A DNA stretch of 64,000 bases from Elioraea tepidiphila DSM 17972 (lineage in GTDB: Bacteria > Pseudomonadota > Alphaproteobacteria > Acetobacterales > Acetobacteraceae), in the NCBI RefSeq assembly GCF_000378465.1, contig NZ_KB899917.1, positions 92,933-156,932 of the forward strand. Reading direction: 5' to 3'. Position 1 is the stretch's first letter; each line of letters starts with the position of its first letter. Positions 39,988 to 41,307 of this stretch are shown one piece after another. Below the pieces are notes generated by a model. It saw nothing but the letters and a program-made list of their open reading frames with translations. It was not told where the DNA came from and did not search any database. Both the position numbers and the translations under genes were made by a program.

Positions 39988-41307
39988 TCACAGATAGCCC
40001 CCGGAGCGCAGCGAGGTGATGCCGTTCCGGCCGACGATCAGGTGATCGCCGACCTCGATATCGACGATCGCGCAGGCGCGGCTGATCTCCTTGGTGAGCG
40101 CGATGTCCTGCCGGCTCGGCCGGGCGTCGCCCGAGGGATGGTTGTGCACCAGGATCAGCTTGGTCGCGTGCAGTTCGAGCGCGCGCTTGATCAGCTCGCG
40201 CGTGTGCACGGCGACGAAGTCGGTGGTGCCCCGCGCCTGGAGGTCGTCGGCCAGCAGACGGTTGCGGTTGTCGAGGTAGAGGACACGGAAGTTCTCGACC
40301 CGTTCGCTCGCGAGCGAGGCATAGACATAGGCCGAGAGCTGGTCCCAGTCCTGCAACACCAGCCCCTCCTGCATGCGCGTGCGCAAGAGCCGCACGGCTG
40401 AGGCATTCACCGCCTTGATGCAGACCGCCTGCTCGCGCGTCAGCCCGGCCCGGCGCGTCAGTTCCGCGATCGGTGCGGCCAGCACCTCGGCATAACCCTC
40501 GAAGGTGACCATCAGCCGCTCGGCGAGGCGGCGCGCCTCATCCGGATTGGCCACCAGGGTCAGCAGGAACTCGAGCAGCGTGCGGTCGTCGAGCTGATCC
40601 GCCGCCTGCGCGACGACAAAGGCGTAGCGGCTGGTGGCATCCAGCGTGGCCGGGGCGTCCTTGGCGAGGTTGTCATGCGCCATGCTGTCGTGCAGGGCCG
40701 CGGCGAGGGTCCTGGCGATGCCGCTGTCGGCAGAATGGGGGCTGGGCTCGTGATGGCCCTGCTCGGTCAGCCGCGACAGCCGGGCGGCGAGCGCCTGGCG
40801 CTCCTGCTCCGAGATCTTGAGGCGGTCGCGCAACGCCTCGGCCTCGGCGGCACGGCGCCGGCGCTGCACCGCGGAGGCCGCGGCGCGGCGGACGATGTCG
40901 ATCACATCGCCCATCCGGAACGGCTTCTTGATGAAGTCGAAGGCGCGCACGCGCACGGCATCGATCGCCACATCCGCGGTCGCCCCGCCCGTCATCACAA
41001 CGACTTCGATGGCAACGGTCTCCTGACGGTTCCAGAGCAGGTCGCTTGCCAATGAGATCCCTGACTGCTCGGGCATACGGAGATCCGTCAAAACAACGCA
41101 AATGGAAGCGTCGGCCTTGATCAGAGTCCAGGCCTGCATCGGCGAGTAGGCTGGGACCACTTCGAAACCATGCTGCGAAAGCCCGAAAGTGACGAGGTGA
41201 ACAATCGCCTTCTCGTCGTCGACAACAAGAATTCTTGGCCTCTCAGGTGCTATCACCTGAGTTCCGACGCCGTCGTCGTCCAGTTTCTCGATACGTCGTC
41301 GAGCCAT
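39988..41307 (-). CDS. Response-regulator receiver domain fused to RadC (JAMM) domain
   Basis: 439 aa with an unusual order. Residues ~23-140: a CheY-type receiver with acidic pair Asp30/Asp31 (RILVVDDE), phospho-acceptor Asp75 in VLTDLRMPE, Thr106 and Lys128 (FIKKPF), all intact. Residues ~141-182: charged helical/coiled-coil linker. Residues ~240-310: RadC helical N-domain (LLEFLLTLVANPDEARRLAERL). Residues ~318-439: RadC MPN/JAMM domain with FRVLYLDNRNRLLADD, HNHPSGD (His388, His390), Ser398 and Asp401, and DHLIVGRNGITSL. Normal RadC has no receiver. Implies phosphorylation-controlled RadC activity; RadC's biochemical role is itself unsettled. No histidine kinase gene is in the window. ATG 41307. 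Confidence 0.93.
   Translation of the reverse strand: MARRRIEKLDDDGVGTQVIAPERPRILVVDDEKAIVHLVTFGLSQHGFEVVPAYSPMQAWTLIKADASICVVLTDLRMPEQSGISLASDLLWNRQETVAIEVVVMTGGATADVAIDAVRVRAFDFIKKPFRMGDVIDIVRRAAASAVQRRRRAAEAEALRDRLKISEQERQALAARLSRLTEQGHHEPSPHSADSGIARTLAAALHDSMAHDNLAKDAPATLDATSRYAFVVAQAADQLDDRTLLEFLLTLVANPDEARRLAERLMVTFEGYAEVLAAPIAELTRRAGLTREQAVCIKAVNASAVRLLRTRMQEGLVLQDWDQLSAYVYASLASERVENFRVLYLDNRNRLLADDLQARGTTDFVAVHTRELIKRALELHATKLILVHNHPSGDARPSRQDIALTKEISRACAIVDIEVGDHLIVGRNGITSLRSGGYL

Follow-up and report, generated by a model that had tools for sequence, protein, structure and literature searches.

Can a two-component signal control RadC? The question is raised by one gene in the window (the whole 64,000-nucleotide stretch of DNA that was analyzed), which was originally predicted to join a receiver domain to RadC. 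RadC itself is disputed as a repair protein and its activity is unproven in passages of PMC5512222 and PMC11981726. Passages of these papers and of PMC3482391 argue from domain contexts that RadC acts on nucleic acids or nucleotides, without a groove for a ubiquitin tail.

A receiver and RadC in a single reading frame

The minus-strand frame from 41307 to 39988 is open through 439 codons, while the plus-strand reading of 39988..41307 is broken by stops. The gene is here called REC-RadC, and its features are given below with conservation counts for two groups of REC-RadC proteins; group 1 includes the window protein, and group 2 is described in a later section.

39988..41307, minus strand: REC-RadC gene, 439 codons plus stop (ATG at 41307, stop ending at 39988; supported by domain matches and homologues)
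40891..41232, minus strand: FixJ-like receiver domain, residues 26-139 (Pfam Response_reg, 68.3 bits; FixJ the best NCBIfam receiver match; strand and helix order of the model)
41215..41220, minus strand: receiver acidic pair Asp30-Asp31 (D in 13/13 group-1 and 4/4 group-2 sequences reaching the site)
41083..41085, minus strand: predicted phospho-acceptor Asp75 (D in 15/15 group-1 and 7/7 group-2 sequences reaching the site)
40990..40992, minus strand: receiver switch residue Thr106 (17/17 in group 1, 7/7 in group 2)
40924..40926, minus strand: receiver Lys128 (17/17 in group 1, 7/7 in group 2)
40759..40914, minus strand: long predicted helix, residues 132-183, comprising the last receiver helix and the linker (DSSP on the AlphaFold2 model)
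40363..40608, minus strand: RadC helical domain, residues 234-315 (NCBIfam), lacking the plain-RadC motifs GHRxRLRxRF and DxKP
40000..40353, minus strand: RadC JAB/JAMM domain, residues 319-436 (Pfam RadC, 132.3 bits; fold match 2qlc)
40294..40296, minus strand: JAMM glutamate Glu338 (17/17 in group 1, 7/7 in group 2)
40105..40146, minus strand: JAMM zinc-site motif HNH..S..D, residues 388-401 (17/17 in group 1, 6/7 in group 2)

Both Pfam matches clear their cut-offs, Response_reg at residues 26-139 (68.3 bits against 30.2) and RadC at residues 319-436 (132.3 bits against 22.1). In NCBIfam, TIGR00608 is passed over residues 235-439 (173.8 against 133.85) and NF000642 narrowly over residues 233-438 (183.3 against 180). 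The C-terminal third matches only RadC and Prok-JAB in Pfam. By sequence, the nearest solved structures are 2qlc, a RadC homologue, on the C-terminal side and 1d5w, the FixJ receiver, on the N-terminal side. The reading frame and the Pfam and NCBIfam matches bear out the original prediction of one 439-codon frame holding an intact receiver, the RadC helical domain and a full JAMM motif, and they place it on the minus strand. Residues read by script put D30, D31, D75, T106, K128, H388, H390, S398 and D401 where they had been predicted; the JAMM glutamate, which had gone unnamed, is E338.

A sequencing or assembly error fusing two genes would also give such a frame. This is refuted, with nothing found in its favor and practically no probability left to it: the domain-architecture search proposed along with the prediction yielded 16 more clusters in which both domains occur, at 50-98% identity to the window protein (one source-labelled Elioraea sp.), and a second genome, G097, carries the gene at full length, 73% identical and possibly among the 16 clusters. 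Because all of these share the architecture, chance or a joining error is excluded. The original prediction knew of no response regulator with a RadC output, and the RadC literature searched likewise yielded no description of this architecture, as judged by titles, abstract openings and the RadC passages in PMC5512222 and PMC3482391. Judged from sequence, REC-RadC reads as a response regulator by each feature tested and as a RadC member by score and active site, though not as a canonical RadC.

The receiver and the linker

The best NCBIfam receiver match is FixJ (92.3 bits), which lies under the FixJ model's own cut-off of 255. The residue set of response regulators (acidic pair, Asp, Thr and Lys) is invariant wherever present among 24 sequences. 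The counts for Asp30/31 and Asp75 are lower because some records, 4 of the 17 in group 1 and 3 of the 7 in group 2, start within the receiver, perhaps through start-codon choice. No helix-turn-helix output family of Pfam was matched in the protein at E up to 0.1.

The receiver runs into a long predicted helix. A coiled coil in the linker was considered and rejected, since the hydrophobic heptad score is not above that of shuffles (p 0.23 for the window protein, 0.98 for P0048 and 0.27 for P0121, the latter two from group 2). An AlphaFold2 model of the window protein, built with 18 sequences, has a mean pLDDT of 74.5 and a pTM of 0.40. It has a receiver-type order of strands and helices, the helix at 132-183, the helical domain and the C-terminal domain. 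In Foldseek, the C-terminal domain matches 2qlc and the other top matches are receivers. We make no claim on domain packing because, at this pTM, the arrangement is unreliable.

Base composition varies along the gene. Third-position G+C in the receiver part (40888-41235) is 0.75 in the window's genome, G000, and 0.70 in G097, and in the linker and RadC parts (39988-40887) it is 0.89-0.96 in both. The dS between the two genes is highest in the receiver as well, at 1.34 versus 0.42-0.66 for the other parts. This combination might reflect either a mosaic origin or some constraint acting on the 5′ part.

A complete JAMM site in the RadC half

The window protein has the complete JAMM site E-HxH-x7-S-x2-D, formed by E338, H388, H390, S398 and D401. 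H388, H390 and S398 are present in 17/17 group-1 and 6/7 group-2 proteins, and D401 in 17/17 and in 7/7 aligned positions, that of P0126 by alignment only. P0126, whose tail is frame-broken, is the sole exception to the invariance of the zinc site. In the sequences compared, both the phosphorylation residues of the receiver and the full JAMM site are intact and conserved.

Alternatively, the RadC half may act not as an enzyme but as a binding module or adaptor under the control of phosphorylation, with the receiver gating the docking of a partner. RssB is such a regulated adaptor, and its structures 3f7a and 3eq2 match the model over 176-179 columns; moreover, passages of PMC5512222 and PMC11981726 report no activity for RadC. 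However, an adaptor would not need the five JAMM residues, which are invariant in 17/17 group-1 proteins down to 50% identity. We regard the adaptor as unlikely, and an enzyme under receiver control as the preferred reading.

Rare occurrence and purifying selection

REC-RadC is rare and patchy in occurrence. It was found in two of the seven genomes of the genus, G000 and G097, and these are also the two with a full-length match among 397 genomes of the family. At E ≤ 1e-95, no match besides G000 was found in a class sample of 385 genomes or in a phylum sample of 398, and 0 of 96 genomes of one other alphaproteobacterial family had a match at 1e-92. Because these limits are strict and few candidates were scored per genome (4 in most rows shown, 18 in the 96-genome survey), fusions with other receivers may be missed. 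A collection of genome contigs, which may leave out records near the window's genome, gave 21 related loci, 20 through the receiver end and one through the RadC end, with no fusion by matched ranges. Among plasmids, P0048 matched 77 records and the window protein 12; none of these reached 80% query coverage.

A comparison of the G000 and G097 genes gives dN/dS values (NG86) of ~0.15 in the receiver, 0.20 in the helical domain, 0.22 in the JAB domain and 0.66 in the linker; identity is 87% in the helical part and 86% in the JAB part. The low values in the receiver, helical and JAB parts indicate that both ends of the gene are under purifying selection.

A second group and the number of origins

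P0048, which is 33% identical to the window protein, led to six further clusters (P0121-P0126), making up group 2 with seven clusters. The RadC half of P0048 is close to plain RadC (~80% identity, for example to P0128 and P0097), whereas the window protein shares 43% identity with P0048 in the RadC half and 28% in the receiver. Two of the seven group-2 proteins, P0048 and P0121, had their receivers scanned; PhoB and PleD models score highest, and the best 25 families listed for them do not include FixJ. A further protein of 771 residues, P0239, lies on a 1.7 Mb contig and shares 82% identity with P0048 in its RadC part.

In a tree of 119 hand-picked RadC halves, group 1 (16 rows) forms one clade (100/99) and so does group 2 (6 rows; 100/100). 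Group 2 is nested in a 30-row set (100/100), of which the remaining rows are receiver-less RadC. Group 1 joins a long branch, L069, also receiver-less, and treekit warns that this long-branch join is possibly false, leaving the placement of group 1 unsure. With 36 hand-picked rows in each case, the AU test rejects the two groups as one clade, at a borderline p of 0.041 for the whole RadC half and at 0.0068 for the JAB part. Because of this rejection and the differing receiver types (FixJ-like vs PhoB/PleD-like), the receiver-RadC pairing likely, not certainly, arose at least twice.

When a profile of both groups was run against the protein database, no third REC-RadC group was found among the best 120 listed. 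A third may still exist, because scoring was limited to 8000 candidates and the list missed 15 of the 16 group-1 clusters already known.

Plain RadC in the same genomes

Whether the genome has a separate, plain RadC was a check proposed at the outset, and two such genes were found in tandem, adjoining at C32:12442-14024 of G000. Two plain RadC genes are likewise carried by G097. Plain RadC is present in all seven genomes of the genus, with two neighboring copies in six of them among the matches listed, and RadC is present in 191 of the 200 family genomes examined. The two plain genes could fill the ordinary role, and REC-RadC would therefore be an added, signal-driven paralogue. The L069 branch mentioned above is a third, divergent RadC in a relative of the genus, G154 (C2:966014-966610); its frame has no receiver seen and no GHRxR or K-P motif.

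N-terminal residues of plain RadC are lost in both groups

What part of plain RadC gave way to the receiver was addressed by comparing columns between 253 plain RadC rows (nearest matches, many alphaproteobacterial by name or genome) and 17 group-1 plus 6 group-2 rows. Eight odd rows were left out of the plain set, among them P0086, P0101, P0095, P0100 and L069. Of 83 columns at least 85% conserved in plain RadC, ten are kept by less than 20% in both fusion groups. Five of these (G, H, R, R and G) belong to the GHRxRLRxRF..G helix and five (E, F, A, K and P) to the helices after it. All ten lost columns fall in the junction (5 of 7) or the helical domain (5 of 20), and none is among the 56 of the JAB domain (Fisher p 0.0008, helical vs JAB). 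When the groups are taken singly, group 1 departs from 9 and group 2 from 1 of the 56 conserved JAB columns.

All ten residues are kept in 179 of the 253 plain rows, which range from 4 to 10, and in 11/11 plain relatives nearest group 2. In contrast, none is kept in 16/17 group-1 and 4/6 group-2 rows, and the other three rows keep one. Because the junction columns are cut off by the fusion itself, the informative columns are the alignable E, F, A, K and P, of which 0/5 are kept in 17/17 group-1 and 5/6 group-2 rows. As patterns, GHRxR and KPLAK occur in 0/17 and 0/6 of the fusion rows, versus 243 and 235 of 264 other rows, a set that includes two further copies of the fusion type. PF20582 is not matched in the window protein at E up to 0.1 in Pfam. 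An alignment of 57 plain RadC shows no variation at H57, R58, R60 and E77 and almost none at D91, K93 and P94. A plain RadC model (pLDDT 90.5, pTM 0.77) has GHRxRLRxRF in a helix at 53-68, at the head of the helical domain, and weakly matches the Hef HhH domain (1x2i, E 0.045). Aligned in this way, the receiver and linker occupy the position of the GHRxRLRxRF helix, and REC-RadC has lost the DxKP motif.

An N-terminal extension alone does not force the loss, because P0068, a RadC with a different extension, keeps all ten residues. P0068 is a 424-residue metagenome RadC, the N-terminal stretch of which weakly matches ChlI, below the curated cut-off. Conversely, motif loss needs no receiver, because P0086, P0101, P0095, P0100 and L069 keep 0-2 of the ten residues and have none; overall, 12 of 262 receiver-less rows match neither motif pattern. 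P0086 and P0101 are 375-residue RadC proteins with a long N-terminal region, lacking the GHRxR and K-P motifs, and Pfam gives nothing for this region of P0086 at E up to 0.01.

Two other candidate marks of the fusion were rejected. The second G of the helix-hairpin-helix GxG is found in just 112 of 253 plain RadC. Mean net charge over the first helix and helical region is +4.2 in plain RadC, -0.8 in group 1 and +1.0 in group 2, and it was dropped given the small differences beyond the first helix (+2.6, +2.0 and +1.0, respectively).

These losses, seen also in some receiver-less RadC, together with the two plain genes and the patchy occurrence, would fit a decaying spare paralogue that acquired its receiver by accident. 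Decay is at odds with 87% and 86% identity of the helical and JAB parts between G000 and G097 at a dN/dS near 0.2, and with a pairing that likely arose twice, and it appears to us very improbable. That two fusions, likely separate in origin, lack the same N-terminal residues points to the part of ordinary RadC whose place the receiver takes.

Histidine kinases and gene neighborhood

No HisKA or HATPase_c match was found within the 64-kb window. The nearest HATPase_c match lies ~47 kb from REC-RadC in G000 and ~20 kb in G097. The HATPase_c matches number 31 in G000 (none in the window) and 26 in G097 (one on the REC-RadC contig); there are 23 HisKA matches in G000, 22 of them over the cut-off and none linked to the REC-RadC gene. 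Listings of codon-position-filtered ORFs, named by eye, gave no shared neighbors between the window and G097, and the gene upstream of REC-RadC in the window is also present in G097, on a different contig.

That no partner kinase was found near the gene would agree with a receiver that serves as a fixed dimerization or docking module and stays unphosphorylated in the cell. Against such a module stand the retention of D30, D31, D75, T106 and K128 in every sequence of either group that reaches them and the receiver dN/dS of ~0.15, and we consider it quite unlikely, favoring a phosphorylated receiver.

SOS control of the gene was also considered and rejected; the sole perfect GTTC-N7-GTTC near the gene falls within its coding frame (40291-40305) rather than upstream. 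With up to one mismatch, this pattern has 44 matches in the whole window versus a mean of 31 and a largest count of 42 in 100 shuffles.

A proposed mechanism

The original prediction that RadC is under receiver control is supported. It is the best reading because neither group shows any change at the phosphorylation residues, wherever these are present, and because two lineages likely acquired the pairing. The receiver would in turn be controlled by a histidine kinase. REC-RadC is probably a response regulator with a RadC-type JAMM output, and a histidine kinase encoded by a separate gene, by phosphorylating Asp75, would likely switch the predicted zinc hydrolase.

Phosphorylation of Asp75 would change the α4-β5-α5 face of the receiver, and the phosphorylated protein would dimerize through this face or through the ~50-residue helix that follows. 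Dimerization may then open or re-orient the JAMM site, where activation is a guess at the direction. Gating of the JAMM site by phosphorylation through the long helix is suggested by analogy with PorX. The substrate may be a nucleic acid or a nucleotide, as proposed in print for RadC. With the first-helix motif and the K-P pair exchanged for receiver control, REC-RadC would no longer find its substrate in the way plain RadC does.

A broader idea, to which we lean less, is that PorX-like, signal-gated hydrolases of nucleic acids or nucleotide messengers evolved at least twice, the receiver replacing an N-terminal helix for targeting or control and the K-P motif being erased, which might mark the natural switch of RadC. 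If RadC is controlled by the receiver, acetyl phosphate, BeF3- and D75 mutants would offer a chemical on/off handle for seeking RadC activity in vitro.

Comparison with known systems

Plain RadC (UPF0758; TIGR00608, NF000642) and REC-RadC have in common the helical and JAB domains, the full E-HxH-S-D site, scores passing both cut-offs and the fold match to 2qlc. Plain RadC has the GHRxRLRxRF helix where REC-RadC has the receiver and linker, and REC-RadC is without DxKP and PF20582. In both carrier genomes, REC-RadC is a further gene, with two plain genes located elsewhere.

Among response regulators, the REC-RadC receiver is closest to FixJ (NCBIfam; 1d5w). However, FixJ and NarL transcription factors have a C-terminal HTH output, whereas REC-RadC has a JAMM output, with no DNA-binding output family matched. 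PorX likewise couples a receiver to an output with a metal site. In the abstract of PMC11320123, it is described as a response regulator of type IX secretion with zinc-dependent phosphodiesterase activity, the output of which has an alkaline-phosphatase-like fold and not JAMM; such an output is not seen in the REC-RadC protein. The Foldseek match of 8tef to the REC-RadC model is poor over the full length (rmsd 19) and good over ~120 columns (1.5 Å, one chain). RadC-like DinG proteins, as described in passages of PMC11981726, use a RadC-type domain as a module joined to a helicase. RadC serves as a module in both architectures, with a helicase as its partner there and a receiver here.
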